From contig DAHXPE010000493.1 of NCBI GenBank assembly GCA_027364495.1, positions 1 to 14,097 on the forward strand: DNA of 14,097 nucleotides, given 5' to 3'. A model generated the notes under the pieces. It made no database searches, had not been told where the DNA came from, and saw only the letters and a list, made by a program, of their open reading frames with translations. A program made the position numbers and the translations under genes. This document shows positions 4,920-13,261 of the stretch, piece by piece. Numbering within the stretch: the first letter of the stretch is position 1; each line of letters opens with the position of its first letter. The DNA is from Candidatus Heimdallarchaeota archaeon (GTDB lineage: Archaea > Asgardarchaeota > Heimdallarchaeia > Hodarchaeales > LC-3).

Positions 4920-5933
4920 ATGACTGAATCTCCTGTTGTTGAAGAAACTCTGGATGAACAAATCGTTGCCAAGGATAGGGATTGGGGTATAATTGCGGCT
5001 ATTTTTATCGGAGCCTTTTTTGCAATCATTTCTTTTTTAGCTACTATTTCAGGATTGAAATACACTGTTCCTTTTTTATTTATAACTATATCTGAAATTT
5101 TACTTTTTATTGCTGGTTTGACATTTTGGAGAGATAGAAAAATACTAGGTACAGATTTAGAGAATTCTCTATTAAAAAAAAGATATTATATGTTTATTGC
5201 AAGTCTGGTTCTTTATTTTGTTGGTATTTTTATTTGGATTTTTCTTTATAACTCTGATGCACTTATTGAAGTAACCTATATTACAGTCATACCTTTTTTA
5301 CTCATAACCATTAAATATTTTAACGTTTTTTTTGAAGGTTCTAATGAAAAGAACTCTGCTAATGAAGAAAATGAGTTATTAAAGAAAAAAAGTTCAAGCA
5401 TTACTAAATACAAACAAATGTTTGTAATCCCCTTAATTATCAATATTATTGGTGCGATATCCTTTTTCGTTTTCCCATGGTTTAGTACAACAGCCAATGT
5501 TTTAAATTATAATGCTTATTACAATTGTCCTAATTTTCCAAATTGTGATCCAACACAATTCACTACTCAAAGCACGGAATATTATAATTTTCAGAATGTT
5601 GGTATAAGTCGTTTTTTCACATATTTTATGATTTTATTAGCATTGATAGGCAGTATAATTCTTTACATTTCCTATAAAGATATTACTTTGAAACAATCAA
5701 ACGTTAAACTGAGAATCGGAATGTTAATATTAACAGCGACGTCTTTTTTGACTATTATGGGTTTGTTTTCACTTTATTATTATTTAGTATCTTTACAAGC
5801 AAATAGTGCCCCACCAGTTGATTATTTTTCAATTGATTACGGGCTACTATTAGGAATAATGCTTATTCTTATTTCAACTGCAGTATCTTTGAATATAAGC
5901 AGAACAATACATAAAATTTTTGATAAACATTAG
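4920..5933 (+). CDS. Eight-helix integral membrane protein of unknown function
   Basis: I do not recognise a family. The 337-residue protein has an acidic cytoplasmic N-terminus (1-20) and about eight membrane helices (22-44, 48-70, 89-110, 114-136, 166-187, 231-251, 264-290, 306-326) in two groups of four. A charged, Lys/Glu-rich linker (137-165) separates them and should be cytoplasmic by the positive-inside rule. The second half has a long external loop (188-230) rich in Asn, Tyr and Gln with two cysteines, C203 and C209, in CPNFPNC, which could form a disulphide. No transporter, enzyme or receptor motif is visible. It stands alone: 216 bp follow the FetB-like gene and 185 bp precede the next. 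A TATA-like stretch (TTTTAAATTT, about 4878-4887) may give it its own promoter, and there is no clear Shine-Dalgarno. Confidence 0.85.
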   Translation: MTESPVVEETLDEQIVAKDRDWGIIAAIFIGAFFAIISFLATISGLKYTVPFLFITISEILLFIAGLTFWRDRKILGTDLENSLLKKRYYMFIASLVLYFVGIFIWIFLYNSDALIEVTYITVIPFLLITIKYFNVFFEGSNEKNSANEENELLKKKSSSITKYKQMFVIPLIINIIGAISFFVFPWFSTTANVLNYNAYYNCPNFPNCDPTQFTTQSTEYYNFQNVGISRFFTYFMILLALIGSIILYISYKDITLKQSNVKLRIGMLILTATSFLTIMGLFSLYYYLVSLQANSAPPVDYFSIDYGLLLGIMLILISTAVSLNISRTIHKIFDKH

Positions 5934-6508: not shown

Positions 6509-7012
6509 TTAATCACTATATATTTCATCAAAAGCTTCACTTGATCTCTTAATATCGTTAATGTTTAAGTATGTACTAGCTGTATGGTCAAAAACTAAAG
6601 GTCCTATTTTTTTAATCATTTTTTTTATATTAATATCCCTTGATGTTTTATAAATATCTGAAATTGGTACTGAATGTGCTAAAGGGCATAATAAATCAAT
6701 AAAAATATTTGTTGGATCTAGAGCTGTTTTATTCCAAAGGATGGGATACATTTTGCATATAGTTGGTCTAGTATCATAAATTAAACACGCATTAGAAGAG
6801 GATAAAAATATACATCGTTCTCCATTAGTTTGATAAAAATATAAATCCTTCTCGTCAGATAGTTTTTCCAATGACTGAGTTGGTGGAATTACATCCTTTG
6901 TTTTGGCCTCTAAAAATGGATTAATTTCAGAAGAATGTATTATTAGATTTGCATTAGTACAACATCCTCCTGTCTTGATAATGCATTCGTTACAAATATT
7001 TTTATTTTCCAT
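6509..7012 (-). CDS. YkgJ-type cysteine-cluster protein (putative zinc or Fe-S binding)
   Basis: A 167-residue soluble protein with eight cysteines in the YkgJ pattern: C7 and C10 (CxxC), C17-C18 (GGCC), C67 (RCIFL), C76 (ACLIYD), C86 (RPTICKMYP) and C109 (LLCPL). The segment CxFL-x5-CxIYDxRPxxCKxYP is the family signature. YkgJ proteins are described as zinc- or iron-chelating and probably carry a metal cluster; their reaction is largely unknown. I place the start at ATG 7010-7012 (MENKNICNEC). A TTG nine bases upstream (7019-7021) is the only alternative, since a stop immediately precedes it. There is no Shine-Dalgarno. Upstream, an ATTCCT/AGGAAT inverted repeat (7047-7064) may be regulatory. 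The gene is divergent from the fluoride operon and converges with the OB-fold-like gene. Confidence 0.88.
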   Translation of the reverse strand: MENKNICNECIIKTGGCCTNANLIIHSSEINPFLEAKTKDVIPPTQSLEKLSDEKDLYFYQTNGERCIFLSSSNACLIYDTRPTICKMYPILWNKTALDPTNIFIDLLCPLAHSVPISDIYKTSRDINIKKMIKKIGPLVFDHTASTYLNINDIKRSSEAFDEIYSD

Positions 7013-7021
7013 AACTTTCAA

Positions 7022-7156
7022 TTATTAATCCAATAAACGAATTCTTATTCCTATGTAAAGGAATCAATTATTTTTCAAAAAATACTAGTCGAGATCTTCA
7101 CGATACTAATATTTAAAAATCAAAAAAAAGAGCAAAATTTGACCTTAAAAGCGCAT
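7022..7156. other. Divergent intergenic region between the YkgJ-type gene and the fluoride riboswitch
   Basis: With the riboswitch and its leader this makes a 354-bp stretch without a protein gene. It holds a 6-bp inverted repeat, ATTCCT/AGGAAT with a 6-nt loop (7047-7064), a TATA-like GTTTATTG near 7032-7039 for the minus-strand gene as read from that strand's leaderless start, and the promoter candidate of the fluoride operon at 7110-7120. No RNA gene or other reading frame is apparent. Confidence 0.4.
7110..7120 (+). promoter_or_regulatory. TATA-box candidate of the fluoride operon
   Basis: TATTTAAAAAT lies about 26 bp before an expected transcription start near 7141, about 16 bases before the first paired base of the riboswitch. 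A second TATA-like stretch, CTTAAAAG (7144-7151), is less likely because transcription from it would start inside the aptamer. Confidence 0.45.
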
Positions 7157-7217
7157 TTGGTGATGGAGTCCACCTTGGTTATTGTAACCAGAACCGCATT
7201 GTTGCTGATGACTTCTA
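7157..7217 (+). ncRNA. Fluoride riboswitch (crcB RNA motif)
   Basis: This leader RNA senses fluoride and turns on the channel genes behind it. All conserved parts are visible. P1 is GGUG (7159-7162) with CACC (7171-7174). Its loop, AUGGAGUC (7163-7170), includes the conserved GAUGG. A variable hairpin UGGUUA/UAACCA (7176-7181, 7185-7190) follows, then the conserved AACCGC (7192-7197), a short P2 (GCA 7196-7198 with UGC 7203-7205), and the 3' segment GCUGAUGACUUCUA (7204-7217). The pseudoknot is satisfied: GGAGUC (7165-7170) pairs with GACUUC (7210-7215) with one G-U pair. Two CrcB genes directly downstream confirm the assignment. Fluoride riboswitches are known in bacteria and archaea. The 158 nt between aptamer and first start codon must hold the expression platform. 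Confidence 0.93.
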
Positions 7218-7375
7218 ATTTTATATTTATAGGGTTATTACATGCAACATTTGAGCAGATTCGATTATCAACGTAATTATTTTTTAATTAAAGTTTTGGT
7301 AAATGAAAAGAGAAATTTAACAATTTTTTTCAAAAAAAGACTTTTCTACTAATTGATTGTCAACGGAATTCCTTT
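7218..7375 (+). promoter_or_regulatory. Riboswitch expression platform / leader of the fluoride operon
   Basis: This A/T-rich leader contains two T runs that archaeal polymerase could terminate at (six Ts at 7280-7285; seven Ts at 7324-7330, followed by C and seven As). GCAACA (7244-7249) can pair with UGUUGC (7200-7205), which would destroy P2 and enclose the pseudoknot strand, so the two folds exclude each other. The start site of the first channel gene is inside a weak, self-complementary GGAATTCC (7365-7372), with no good Shine-Dalgarno. Control by premature termination fits, but is not shown. Confidence 0.45.
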
Positions 7376-7753
7376 ATGATTAATGCTATTATCAACTTAC
7401 TTGCAGTTTCGATAGGAGGAACGTTAGGAGCTGAATCAAGGTATTATTTAACAGGAAAGATTAAATTTAAAAATCCAATTCCATTTGGGACCTACATCGT
7501 CAATGTTTCAGGAAGTTTTGGATTGGGAATATTTGTTGAACTTACAAAATTACTTCCCATACCATCATGGCTAGTTTTATTTATAGCAACTGGTTTTTTT
7601 GGCTGTTTTACTACAATGTCAACATTTGCAGTTGAATCGTTAGGATTAGCAGAACTGTCTAGAAAATTAGCTATTGAAAACATTGTCTTAATGATTTTTT
7701 CGGTCTTACTGGGAGCTTTACTGGGTGAAAGTATTCTTTCACTTATCAAATGA
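7376..7753 (+). CDS. crcB: CrcB/Fluc fluoride channel subunit 1
   Basis: A 125-residue, four-helix protein of the Fluc family, which lets fluoride leave the cell through dimeric channels. Helices lie near 4-20, 38-58, 66-88 and 100-120. Family residues are GGTLGAESRYYL (14-25, with R22), PFGTYIVNVSGSF (36-48, with pore N43) and GFFGCFTTMSTF (73-84). The helix break GxFTTxSTF forms the central sodium site and the fluoride path. The first of the two pore phenylalanines is Met (M81), the second is kept (F84). Basic residues sit in the loop after helix 1 (R22, K28, K30, K32) and in the loop after helix 3 (R96, K97), so both ends should face outside. It is first in the riboswitch-controlled operon; its partner starts 21 bp after its stop. 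Confidence 0.96.
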   Translation: MINAIINLLAVSIGGTLGAESRYYLTGKIKFKNPIPFGTYIVNVSGSFGLGIFVELTKLLPIPSWLVLFIATGFFGCFTTMSTFAVESLGLAELSRKLAIENIVLMIFSVLLGALLGESILSLIK

Positions 7754-7774
7754 ATAATTTATGAAGTTAATTAT

Positions 7775-8191
7775 ATGAAGATTCCAAATCTAAACAATTC
7801 ATTTTTTTTGGTCATGTTTGGTGCAATTCCAGGTGCATTAGGAAGATATTTTCTTGGACTGCTATTTAATGGACCATTTGTCATTCCGGTTGGAACTTTG
7901 CTTGCAAATGTAGCTGGAAGCTTTATATTAGGATCTGTGGTTACATTATATCGACTTCAACTTGTTAAGCCTGCTGCAATTACCGCGGTGGGAATTGGAT
8001 TTTGCGGAAGTCTTACTACTATGTCCACTTTTGCAATTGAATCAATAAATTTGCTTGCAAACTCTTATGTATTATTTTTAAGTTATTTGTCAATTACGTT
8101 AATTTTTATTTATGCAAGTGCTTATTTAGGTAGAATCGCTGTTATGCTTTTATATGTTAGAAGGAATGAGAAATGGAATTTAGAAAAATGA
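7775..8191 (+). CDS. crcB: CrcB/Fluc fluoride channel subunit 2
   Basis: A 138-residue second Fluc subunit, divergent from the first. Conserved parts are GAIPGALGRYFLG (16-28, R24), PVGTLLANVAGSF (38-50, pore N45) and GFCGSLTTMSTF (75-86). As in subunit 1, Met (M83) replaces the first pore phenylalanine and F86 is kept. The charge pattern is the reverse of subunit 1: basic residues are in the N-terminus (K2), the loop between helices 2 and 3 (R60, K65) and the C-terminal tail (R129, R130, K133, K138), while the loops after helices 1 and 3 lack them. Both ends should therefore face the cytoplasm. The pair probably forms an antiparallel heterodimer. Its last 19 bases overlap the DUF190 gene. 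Confidence 0.96.
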   Translation: MKIPNLNNSFFLVMFGAIPGALGRYFLGLLFNGPFVIPVGTLLANVAGSFILGSVVTLYRLQLVKPAAITAVGIGFCGSLTTMSTFAIESINLLANSYVLFLSYLSITLIFIYASAYLGRIAVMLLYVRRNEKWNLEK

Positions 8192-8484
8192 TTAGGGTCC
8201 AGATAAGAATAGCTGGTGATAAAAAAGTATCTGGAAAGCCTCTTTCACAGGCTATTTTAGAAGTTTGTAGAAAAGAGAGTATTTTAGGAGCAACCGTTAT
8301 ACGTTGTGAATTTGGATATGGTGAACACGAGTATAAGCCTCATGTTCTAAGGAATTTGACTGATCTACCGGAAATTGTTGAAATTGTTGATGAACCTTCT
8401 GAAATTATGCGTTTGTTACCAATTTTAAAAAAAATTGTCAATGATAATGGCTTAATTACTATTGATGAGGTGTTAACAGTATGA
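8173..8484 (+). CDS. DUF190 family protein (PII-like), fluoride operon member
   Basis: A 103-residue soluble protein of the DUF190 family, which has a ferredoxin-like, PII-like fold and often accompanies CrcB genes. Recognisable parts are IRVQIRIAGDKK (7-18), GKPLSQAILEVCRKESILGATVIR (21-44, the highly conserved helix-strand), GYGEH (48-52) and LTDLPEIVEIVDEPSEI (62-78, strand plus start of the second helix), ending ITIDEVLTV. Function is not established; a regulatory or nucleotide-binding role is an inference from the fold. The ATG at 8173 is preceded by GAAGGA (about 8160-8165), 7 nt away, and overlaps the end of the channel gene by 19 nt. An alternative ATG at 8188 overlaps the channel's stop as ATGA but lacks its own ribosome site. 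Confidence 0.92.
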   Translation: MEFRKMIRVQIRIAGDKKVSGKPLSQAILEVCRKESILGATVIRCEFGYGEHEYKPHVLRNLTDLPEIVEIVDEPSEIMRLLPILKKIVNDNGLITIDEVLTV

Positions 8485-9149
8485 ATCCAAATAATGACCT
8501 TCCAGAAAAAGAATTGCGATCTTCTTTGACAGTTGATGGCATTAAAGACGTTTTTAATACATTAATAATGAATCTATTGTATGAAATTAAATTATTTAGT
8601 GAAAATGTAAACAAAGATCATTCAGATGAAATTGCTGCTCAATTGAATAAAATTGACACCAAAAATGATTACTTTTCACATTTACTTACACAAATTTTAC
8701 TCAAAGGAATATTTCTACCAATAAATGATAGATATTTTACCCAAAGCATTCAAAAATTTGATGAATTAATAGATTTAATCCAAAGAATTAGTCATCATTT
8801 GTGGCTTTTGAAATGTCCTTTATGGATAGTAGACCACTATGTTGAAATGTTTGGAATAATATCAGATCAACTTGTGAACTTAAATAAATGGTTTGTAGAT
8901 GATGTAGATTATGATCGAGAATTAGAAAAAATTTCTCAGCTAGAGAATAAAGCAGATAAATATCACATTGAATTTTTACAAAGTCTTTTTGCAAAAGAGA
9001 ATGATTTTAAGGTTTTTGCACAGGCTAATTTACTTGATCAAACACTAGAGGATATTACAGATACAATTGAACGTCTATCTAAGCAATTGTTTATTTTTTT
9101 CAATGAATATAAAACTCTTACACAGCCATTACCTCATTATCTCCCTTAA
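8481..9149 (+). CDS. DUF47/PhoU-like helical protein, last gene of the fluoride operon
   Basis: A 222-residue all-helical protein with the two-repeat layout of PhoU/DUF47. Repeat 1 has the segment FLPINDRYFTQSI (78-90) followed by FDELIDLI (93-100), matching the family's PhDRxDhxxL-DDhhD motif but with N for the first acidic position. Repeat 2 starts with ENKADKYHIEFL (155-166, the ExxAD helix) and ends DQTLEDITDTIERL (186-199). DUF47 proteins usually sit beside PiT phosphate transporters and bind metals on these acidic helices; no PiT gene is present here. The start overlaps the DUF190 stop as ATGA, with GAGGTG (8467-8472) 8 nt upstream, so the gene is certainly translated with the fluoride operon. 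Its task in fluoride defence is unknown. A poly-T tract follows 50 bp later. Confidence 0.82.
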   Translation: MNPNNDLPEKELRSSLTVDGIKDVFNTLIMNLLYEIKLFSENVNKDHSDEIAAQLNKIDTKNDYFSHLLTQILLKGIFLPINDRYFTQSIQKFDELIDLIQRISHHLWLLKCPLWIVDHYVEMFGIISDQLVNLNKWFVDDVDYDRELEKISQLENKADKYHIEFLQSLFAKENDFKVFAQANLLDQTLEDITDTIERLSKQLFIFFNEYKTLTQPLPHYLP

Positions 9150-9198
9150 TTGTTCAAGTTCAAGCCTTAATGCTTTACTCACATAATTTTTCAAAGCC

Positions 9199-9206
9199 TT
9201 TTTTTT
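9199..9206 (+). terminator. Poly-T terminator candidate of the fluoride operon
   Basis: Eight consecutive Ts follow the DUF47-like gene by 50 bp. Such tracts act as intrinsic terminators in archaea, and the next gene has its own TATA-like box further downstream. Confidence 0.5.
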
Positions 9207-11617: not shown

Positions 11618-13261
11618 TTAATTTTTTTTGGATTTCTTTTCGAAATTCATCAATGGATTAAGCATTATATTTGCAAATTCTTGATAGAATTGTTCTAATT
11701 CATAATAAATTTCTTCAACATTCTTTTGAATTCCATCTTTTCGACCAATATAACGCATTTTGCAATAAGTTTCAATTTTAGATTTATTATCATCAAAATG
11801 ATCTGTTTTACGTTCGACAGTCAATTTATAAACTCGGTTTGATTTTTTGGAAACGACCAAAAAACCATAACTTCGAAATTCAGATACCCCTGATATTTCA
11901 ATTGATGCATGCAATGCTGGATCCAATTCACTTTTTGAGGTAATTCCAATTGATCTAATTGGATATTTGTCCTCTTCCATGATAAAAAATGCTGGTTTAT
12001 CTTTTGGAAGTTTTACTGGAAATACTGTTGGAGGTAAAATGTACTTTATAAATGGTCCTTCAATGTGAACAATCAATGATGGGTTTGGTACGCCAACATA
12101 ACCAGTAACCCAGTTTTCAGATTTTACCAAGACCTGTGGGTTTAATTCATATAATTGAAAAGAGGCAGAACTTTGAATTAGTTCAAAAAATCCTCTCTGG
12201 TTCAGAATAATACGATAATTGAACCATGAAGGATCGACTTTGAAATACCCAGAGATAATTTTACCTAAGGATGCAGTTTCATCCCATAATGCTTGATCTG
12301 AAATATGATTTTCAGAGACAAGGGTCGCACCAATCCATTTTTTACTCAAATAAGCAACTGCTTTGAAATTAGCTACGATTTCTGATATGAGAAACAAAAG
12401 ATTATTGTTGATTCTTTGGAGATTACCTATATCCATTTTAAATTCTAAACGATAAAATCGTTCTTTTAAAAGATATTCAGCTATGGATGATGAATCTTTG
12501 GGGTAATCATGAGGATTAGTTAGAACTAATCTGAAATATTCGACACCAGGATCAATTGTTACGCGAATGAAATCTGATAATTCTTTGTCTTGGTGTACTA
12601 AATGTATTCTGTTGTATTGTGTCATAACATAAGGAAGTAGAATGTCTTTGCCACGAATTTTATCATTTAGTAATTTAACTAAGTCTGGTGAGAGTCGCTT
12701 ATCTAATTCAGTCTCGCTACTTAATATAGTTACAATTTCAGAATATTTCATGTAAGGAGATTTATGGCTATCAACCTCATTTTCATCGAGCCATCCTTCA
12801 AGTCGATTCTTAGATTTTAACGATGATTCATGAAGTATTCCGTCTTCTGATGCTTTCTGAATACGAAATACTATATCTTTGTCTTGTTTAACACTAATAT
12901 AATCAATTAATCCTGGTGAAGATTCTTCAATAAAATCACTATTTTCGATATCCCCTTGGGAAACCGTAGTTTTAATTTCAAGGAGATTGAAGACAGTGTC
13001 ATTTGAAATATGCCATATATTATTTGCACGGACTTTAGCATACAATCTTGCTTTAACAGAAAGGCCTGGTTCAAGACCATTGACGCCTGAAAAATAGATT
13101 GTTCTTGTAATAGGTGTATCTTCATAAATTTTTTGCTTAAAGCCAAGTTTTTCAAACTCTTCAATTAAAGATTGTTCATCTCGAGCATAAAAAACATATC
13201 TTAATTCAGATCGTTCAAGGTCAATGGCCCTTTTGTCAAGATCTGTCTTCGTAATAGTCAT
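11618..13261 (-). CDS. VTC/TTM-domain protein (polyphosphate polymerase-like) with unassigned C-terminal domain
   Basis: A 547-residue soluble protein. Its N-terminal ~300 residues follow the VTC domain of the triphosphate-tunnel superfamily, whose yeast member VTC4 builds polyphosphate from ATP. The motif order matches: ERSELRYVF (16-24, compare ERYELKY), TRTIYFSG (52-59, R53), VKARLYAK (69-76), LLEIK (93-97), MTQYNRIHL (213-221, R218), RVTID (233-237) and YRLEFKM (270-276, E273, K275). These basic and acidic residues would line the tunnel. The usual RxR is KxR (K70, R72), and long inserts separate the strands. Residues 280-345 are helical. The C-terminal ~200 (about 346-547) I cannot assign; they are beta-rich and end in a helix (EEIYYELEQFYQEF). 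There are no membrane helices or SPX domain. The gene is divergent from the SixA-like gene. The start at ATG 13261 has no Shine-Dalgarno, and a TATA-like TATTATTATTTG lies about 28 bp upstream. Confidence 0.72.
   Translation of the reverse strand: MTITKTDLDKRAIDLERSELRYVFYARDEQSLIEEFEKLGFKQKIYEDTPITRTIYFSGVNGLEPGLSVKARLYAKVRANNIWHISNDTVFNLLEIKTTVSQGDIENSDFIEESSPGLIDYISVKQDKDIVFRIQKASEDGILHESSLKSKNRLEGWLDENEVDSHKSPYMKYSEIVTILSSETELDKRLSPDLVKLLNDKIRGKDILLPYVMTQYNRIHLVHQDKELSDFIRVTIDPGVEYFRLVLTNPHDYPKDSSSIAEYLLKERFYRLEFKMDIGNLQRINNNLLFLISEIVANFKAVAYLSKKWIGATLVSENHISDQALWDETASLGKIISGYFKVDPSWFNYRIILNQRGFFELIQSSASFQLYELNPQVLVKSENWVTGYVGVPNPSLIVHIEGPFIKYILPPTVFPVKLPKDKPAFFIMEEDKYPIRSIGITSKSELDPALHASIEISGVSEFRSYGFLVVSKKSNRVYKLTVERKTDHFDDNKSKIETYCKMRYIGRKDGIQKNVEEIYYELEQFYQEFANIMLNPLMNFEKKSKKN

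Follow-up and report, generated by a model that had tools for sequence, protein, structure and literature searches.

A riboswitch-led gene cluster from a probable Heimdall archaeon sets PII-like and PhoU/PitR-like genes behind a predicted heterodimeric fluoride channel

SbtB and GlnK are PII-fold regulators that bind transporters, as the titles of the corresponding structure entries also state. For phosphate, an accessory protein of a different fold is described: PF01865, the family of DUF47 proteins, is the PitR family, whose members are presented as accessory regulators of phosphate transporters in the relevant passages of PMC13170248. Among fluoride channels of the CrcB (Fluc) family, the paired Flucs of Lactobacillus acidophilus work only in combination, neither being active by itself, and paired Flucs carry opposite loop charges while singletons are relatively balanced, according to the parts of PMC3755343 that deal with such pairs. 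Here we describe a locus in a 14,097-nt stretch of DNA (the window) in which a fluoride riboswitch aptamer precedes two crcB genes, a DUF190 gene and a DUF47 gene. On balance, we favour the reading that this locus encodes a fluoride-induced heterodimeric Fluc channel whose two dedicated accessory regulators, DUF190 and DUF47, are produced along with it. Its observed basis is the aptamer match, the gene order and overlaps, the charge bias of the CrcB pair, the predicted folds, the recurrence of crcB-DUF190-DUF47 in other genomes and the separation of these DUF47s from PiT-linked ones in a tree. The features concerned are as follows.

7150..7224, plus strand: fluoride riboswitch aptamer RF01734, from covariance-model score and pseudoknot pairing
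7376..7753, plus strand: CrcB1, Fluc subunit, lysine and arginine (K+R) biased to loops 1 and 3, predicted N-out (PF02537 77.6 bits, bias -4)
7775..8191, plus strand: CrcB2, Fluc subunit, K+R biased to termini and loop 2, predicted N-in (PF02537 75.5 bits, bias +6)
8173..8484, plus strand: DUF190, PII-like protein (PF02641 71 bits; sequence and model matches to PII-like structures)
8481..9149, plus strand: DUF47 (PhoU/PitR-like) of the fluoride-operon clade, with a C-terminal PLPHYLP tail (PF01865 36.9 bits, fold, tree, tail)

The aptamer is the sole Rfam match in the window at the gathering score. RF01734 reaches 45.6 bits against a gathering score of 34 (E 4.4e-10) with the full model (1–64) covered, and loop 1 and the 3' strand form the pseudoknot with six of six positions paired, one as G-U, between arms at 7165–7170 (GGAGUC) and 7210–7215 (GACUUC). 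A first-pass annotation of this DNA had proposed a complete, pseudoknotted fluoride aptamer at 7141–7230; the covariance-model check bears out the aptamer and its pseudoknot but not that extent. Fluoride binding by this leader RNA would be expected to raise expression of the operon. The gene order 3' of the aptamer is crcB1, crcB2, DUF190, DUF47, and all four products score above the Pfam cut-offs, in agreement with the families first assigned to them. CrcB1 and CrcB2 are separated by 21 nt, CrcB2 and DUF190 overlap by 19 nt (8173–8191), and DUF190 and DUF47 overlap by 4 nt (ATGA, 8481–8484); both overlaps of the proposed tight coupling were thus found, and the four genes would share one transcript. 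A second in-frame ATG of DUF190 at 8188 would cut the overlap with CrcB2 to 4 nt, and 5 of the 20 rows of one DUF190 alignment are predicted from that position. We favour the start at 8173 because the M-x-x-R-[KR]-[ML] motif found there is conserved in 17 of 19 rows of another alignment.

The archaeal origin suggested at first reading is upheld by the DUF190 comparisons: the four best genome loci are from Heimdallarchaeota metagenome-assembled genomes (MAGs; L008–L011, 50–58% identity), and the archaeal names among the homologues are Heimdallarchaeota twice (P0040, 57%; P0052, 50%) and Methanobacteriota once (P0053, 50%). Heimdallarchaeota belong to the Asgard archaea, and on these sequence matches the window is probably from an Asgard archaeon of the Heimdall lineage; no marker gene lies in it. 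The survey used below covers 227 genomes, those of the phylum that includes the Heimdallarchaeota MAG G001, which holds locus L008.

CrcB1 and CrcB2 are identical at 41 of 125 aligned positions. Both lie well above the PF02537 cut-off of 32.9 bits, and at the stricter TIGR00494 cut-off of 80.45 bits CrcB1 passes (82.8 bits) and CrcB2 falls below (62.4 bits). We counted K+R on the termini and loop 2 and subtracted K+R on loops 1 and 3, with borders set by hand on CrcB1. This loop-charge bias was -4 for CrcB1 and +6 for CrcB2, compared with -3 to +1 for 16 single CrcBs, while the second CrcB pair, in survey genome G208, gave +6 and -5. The count used 16 of the 18 CrcB genomes of the survey (15 single, one pair) and one bacterial single; it left out G209 (fragments) and G075, whose riboswitch-led crcB is broken by a TAG stop (L149 3058–3297). 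Among plasmid CrcBs only that of Methylocystis was used, that of Chroococcidiopsis being dropped for its long N-terminus and that of Hymenobacter not entered. Because the loop charges of CrcB1 and CrcB2 are opposite, as in the pairs of PMC3755343, we prefer one channel over the two separate channels originally called, which we reject: the two proteins are probably halves of a single antiparallel heterodimeric Fluc. Its expression would rise once fluoride binds the leader RNA, and the heterodimer would then let fluoride out of the cell.

By sequence, the DUF190 profile matches PH1503 (2dcl) and TM0021 (1o51). The predicted structure has a mean predicted local distance difference test (pLDDT) score of 88.2 and is least certain at residues 51–60 (mean pLDDT 61), where the T-loop would be expected. 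A Foldseek search with this model returned 2dcl (E 7.6e-9) and 1o51, titled PII-like (E 6.8e-8), followed by CPII, SbtB and GlnK, some of these hits being chains taken from the SbtA-SbtB and AmtB-GlnK complexes. DUF190 is PII-like in both sequence and predicted fold. It would most likely dock via its T-loop on the cytosolic face of the channel and tune or gate it, as GlnK does on AmtB and SbtB on SbtA. Ten bacterial plasmids gave a match; the three of them that were viewed all pair crcB with DUF190 as well, and fluoride aptamers were found in both of the two plasmid records searched. The Methylocystis plasmid (L001 357–2839 and its record) has three fluoride aptamers and an array of antiporter, stress-protein, crcB and DUF190 genes, and that of Hymenobacter (L003 2474–3209) has two consecutive DUF190 genes 3' of crcB.

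DUF47 exceeds the PF01865 cut-off of 24.4 bits, and the PhoU-like structure 3l39 matches it both by sequence profile (E 4.7e-6) and by model (pLDDT 84.6; E 2.9e-5). DUF47 is therefore PhoU/PitR-like by sequence and predicted helical fold, and such a protein would belong to the channel complex or relay the state of the channel. To leave the last two proteins without an assigned function, as the first-pass annotation had done, was too blank given the PII-like fold of DUF190 and the PitR family of DUF47. PhoU proteins bind metals via ExxxD motifs, and 12 aligned DUF47 rows all have E155 and nearly all have D159, D186 and E190. DUF47 and DUF190 might on this account form a metal- or nucleotide-linked stress buffer that does not touch the channel directly and binds, for instance, Mg, Fe or metal-fluoride complexes. 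The over-representation of divalent-cation transporters near fluoride exporters, as given in the relevant part of PMC11139923, would suit such a role. Yet the operon-linked DUF47 of G001 differs at 159, 186 and 190, and translational coupling would fit a complex better; we regard the buffer as quite improbable.

In the survey, a fluoride aptamer over cut-off (strict filters) was found in 12 of the 227 genomes, DUF190 in 8 and CrcB in 18. A profile of the window's DUF47 family (A1) detected DUF47 in 25 genomes, 9 with at least 76 bits and 16 with 35 bits or fewer; the border of 76 bits for a 'strong A1-type' DUF47 was chosen after seeing the scores, the next being 35. Contiguous crcB-DUF190-DUF47, with a 4-nt DUF190/DUF47 overlap, occurs in G001, G002, G050 and G054. 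The G067 contig begins inside a DUF190 gene that overlaps DUF47 as ATGA, and the genome yielded no crcB. The survey of related genomes that the first-pass annotation had called for therefore agrees with its view of DUF47 as the fourth member of a larger module, the three-gene block being present in 4 of 227 genomes and DUF190-DUF47 in G067. All seven genomes with a Heimdall-type DUF190, counting the G067 fragment, have a strong A1-type DUF47, which is adjacent in five. Eight of the nine genomes with a strong A1-type DUF47 hold crcB, compared with 18 of 227 overall (hypergeometric 2.4e-9, uncorrected for kinship); the ninth is G067, with its cut contig. These counts favour a link of the operon-type DUF47 with fluoride, also in genomes where it lies apart from its partner genes.

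G051 and G188, the latter with the order riboswitch-crcB-DUF190, have another DUF190 subtype (52–53 bits by the Heimdall profile, compared with 129–162 for the four Heimdall-type proteins scored) and no A1-type DUF47. We reject the idea that crcB-DUF190 operons generally include DUF47, on the strength of these two genomes and of 14 bacterial genomes, 13 with CrcB and 6 with DUF47, none of which has DUF47 near crcB (the nearest lies approx. 28 kb away, in G009). The five-part fluoride-defence operon described at the outset is likewise present in the window but not general, as the relatives with crcB-DUF190-DUF47 carry one crcB and no riboswitch over cut-off. The combination of riboswitch, paired crcB, DUF190 and DUF47 was seen only in the window, in a comparison that does not extend to the DNA around the 12 closest DUF47 relatives.

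The most serious competitor of a channel-dedicated DUF47 concerns phosphate. DUF47 could be a phosphate-homeostasis regulator, co-induced as fluoride disturbs phosphate metabolism and acting in trans on phosphate transporters rather than on the fluoride channel. The link between fluoride stress and phosphate homeostasis is reviewed in PMC11139923, in the portion drawn on here, and the pertinent text of PMC13170248 fits the family assignment: in bacteria with both proteins pitA adjoins a pitR, with a sole exception, and some genomes hold further, unclustered homologues. However, the Heimdall relatives appear to have a separate protein in that place. Of nine survey genomes examined, eight have a PiT gene, and a separate DUF47 adjoins PiT in seven of these eight (the PiT-side DUF47 of G001 is a match below cut-off, broken by a stop). 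None of the 16 window open reading frames (ORFs) scanned with Pfam matches PF01384 (PiT).

The DUF47 tree points the same way. Among its 50 rows, a 100/99 branch splits 21 (window-family, crcB-adjacent, lone and dehydrogenase-side) from 6 PiT-linked rows and 23 others, and a PxYL tail ends 18 of the 21 operon-type proteins (the exceptions are G054, G208 and G209) versus none of the 29 others. The root was set at the midpoint for drawing only, and the 'crcB' label on P rows denotes family, not observed gene order. For 5 of the 12 P proteins besides the window's own (P0006, P0008, P0009, P0010, P0012) the longest contig is as long as that of a DUF190 homologue, an indirect sign only. P0008 (short), P0001 (the window's own protein) and the stop-broken PiT-side DUF47 of G001 were left out; the operon DUF47 of G002 was represented by a fragment of 191 aa and fused DUF47s by their C-terminal 225 residues. 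Being apart in the tree, tracking crcB even when not adjacent to it and coupled to DUF190-crcB, the operon-type DUF47 makes the phosphate explanation unlikely in our judgement. At L141 4389–5042 and L142 3986–4612, divergent relatives of the operon-type DUF47 neighbour a dehydrogenase gene that by eye resembles GAPDH; both genomes also have a riboswitch-led crcB. Scans of GTDB 220 and of viral contigs with two peptide patterns each, which reach close kin only and missed the distant relatives in L008 and L009, did not meet the 12 close DUF47 relatives.

Several observations weigh against a dedicated channel-regulator system. G003 and G004 have crcB-DUF190 with the related DUF47 elsewhere (on another contig in G003, approx. 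7 kb off in G004). In G208, where crcB is paired, and in G209, a riboswitch precedes crcB, DUF190 has no match, and a divergent DUF47 relative lies away from crcB beside a dehydrogenase-like gene. A similar CrcB is encoded in G049 and G053, where neither DUF190 nor A1-type DUF47 was found; the G053 contig ends just past crcB. Kinship among the genomes means that the co-occurrence of crcB and DUF47 is not independent. Conservation of fluoride control over DUF47 is not observed, because the relatives show no riboswitch over cut-off: none of G001–G004 has an aptamer match at that level, and neither do G050, G054 and G067 in the survey. A divergent riboswitch was not found in the Heimdall relatives either, the best scores (22.9 bits in G002, 21.6 in G003) lying on contigs other than that of crcB and 13 of 14 control genomes also giving matches at that threshold; the loci of G001, G002, G050, G054 and G067 gave no fluoride RNA match up to E 5. 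Finally, purified Fluc channels have been investigated, and work, without partners of this kind, as the relevant passages of PMC3755343 describe.

The placement in G003 and G004, both with a Heimdall-type DUF190, would also suit a gene order kept by descent alone, with DUF190 and DUF47 sharing the mRNA and having no role in fluoride defence. We consider this very unlikely: the block is retained where the operon DUF47s are only 25–33% identical to that of the window, and crcB-DUF190 recurs on the three bacterial plasmids viewed, with fluoride aptamers in the two records searched.

Three further features flank the genes of the putative operon.

7112..7119, plus strand: TATA-box-like TTTAAAAA, putative archaeal promoter (pattern seen, approx. 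30 nt 5' of the aptamer)
7200..7249, plus strand: candidate expression platform, a possible alternative hairpin taking up the aptamer 3' side (RNA folds)
9199..9206, plus strand: eight consecutive T residues, a possible archaeal terminator of transcription (seen 3' of the last gene)

TTTAAAAA resembles the archaeal TATA-box consensus; a scan for sigma-70 promoters and terminators gave chance level only. The fold of 7196–7258 has an energy of -12.8 kcal/mol, and 13 of 200 shuffles were equally low, which is weak support for the alternative hairpin. T-runs also occur at 7280 and 7324, ahead of crcB1. The operon is flanked by an opposite-strand gene (6509–7021) and by a 6-phosphogluconate dehydrogenase gene from 9269. 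Elsewhere in the window, a 547-aa ORF (11618–13261, minus strand) has no Pfam match up to E 1 and a 337-aa ORF, membrane-like by eye (4920–5933, plus strand), has none over cut-off. Fluoride aptamers also occur in survey genomes with no CrcB match: G173 has four over cut-off (L061, L080, L081, L075) near ORFs that resemble WD-repeat, MFS and P-type ATPase proteins by eye, and other aptamers lie near a membrane-transporter-like ORF (L066, G091) and an antiporter-like ORF (L065, G220), both again judged by eye.

The component families are known, and our analysis suggests that the new element is a PhoU/PitR-type clade tied to a fluoride channel. Going further, it is conceivable, if rather doubtful, that this clade has left phosphate transport and serves the channel as its gate or sensor, together with its PII-like partner. 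DUF190 (nucleotide or anion state) and DUF47 would then open or close export once the RNA switch has set the amount of channel. We know of no other case of a regulated Fluc complex. In the open-licence literature, judged by titles and the starts of abstracts, we found no such clade linked to a fluoride channel, and nothing on fluoride with DUF190 or DUF47, a PII-like protein with CrcB, or an Asgard fluoride riboswitch. The operon suggests that fluoride exporters can come with regulators of their own, and the recurring, translationally coupled PII-like and PhoU-like pair would make that regulation testable; if the reading holds, the PhoU/PitR family would serve an anion other than phosphate.

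Among described systems, the locus resembles La1/La2 of L. acidophilus (PMC3755343) in its tandem crcB genes of low identity and opposite loop charge, but the window pair is archaeal, riboswitch-led and followed by DUF190 and DUF47. With the crcB-DUF190 pairs on plasmids of Methylocystis, Chroococcidiopsis and Hymenobacter it shares a DUF190 gene directly after CrcB, whereas the viewed stretches of those plasmids list no DUF47 gene, have one crcB and encode DUF190s 27–39% identical to that of the window. Chains of SbtB in SbtA-SbtB (7egk) and of GlnK in AmtB-GlnK (2ns1) match the DUF190 model, although Fluc is a far smaller channel and docking of DUF190 on it is a prediction. Lastly, as in PitA-PitR and NptA-PhoU, in the passages of PMC13170248 that concern them, a PhoU-like accessory protein is coded beside, or fused to, a transporter; the partner in the window is instead a fluoride channel, and its DUF47s stand apart in the tree.

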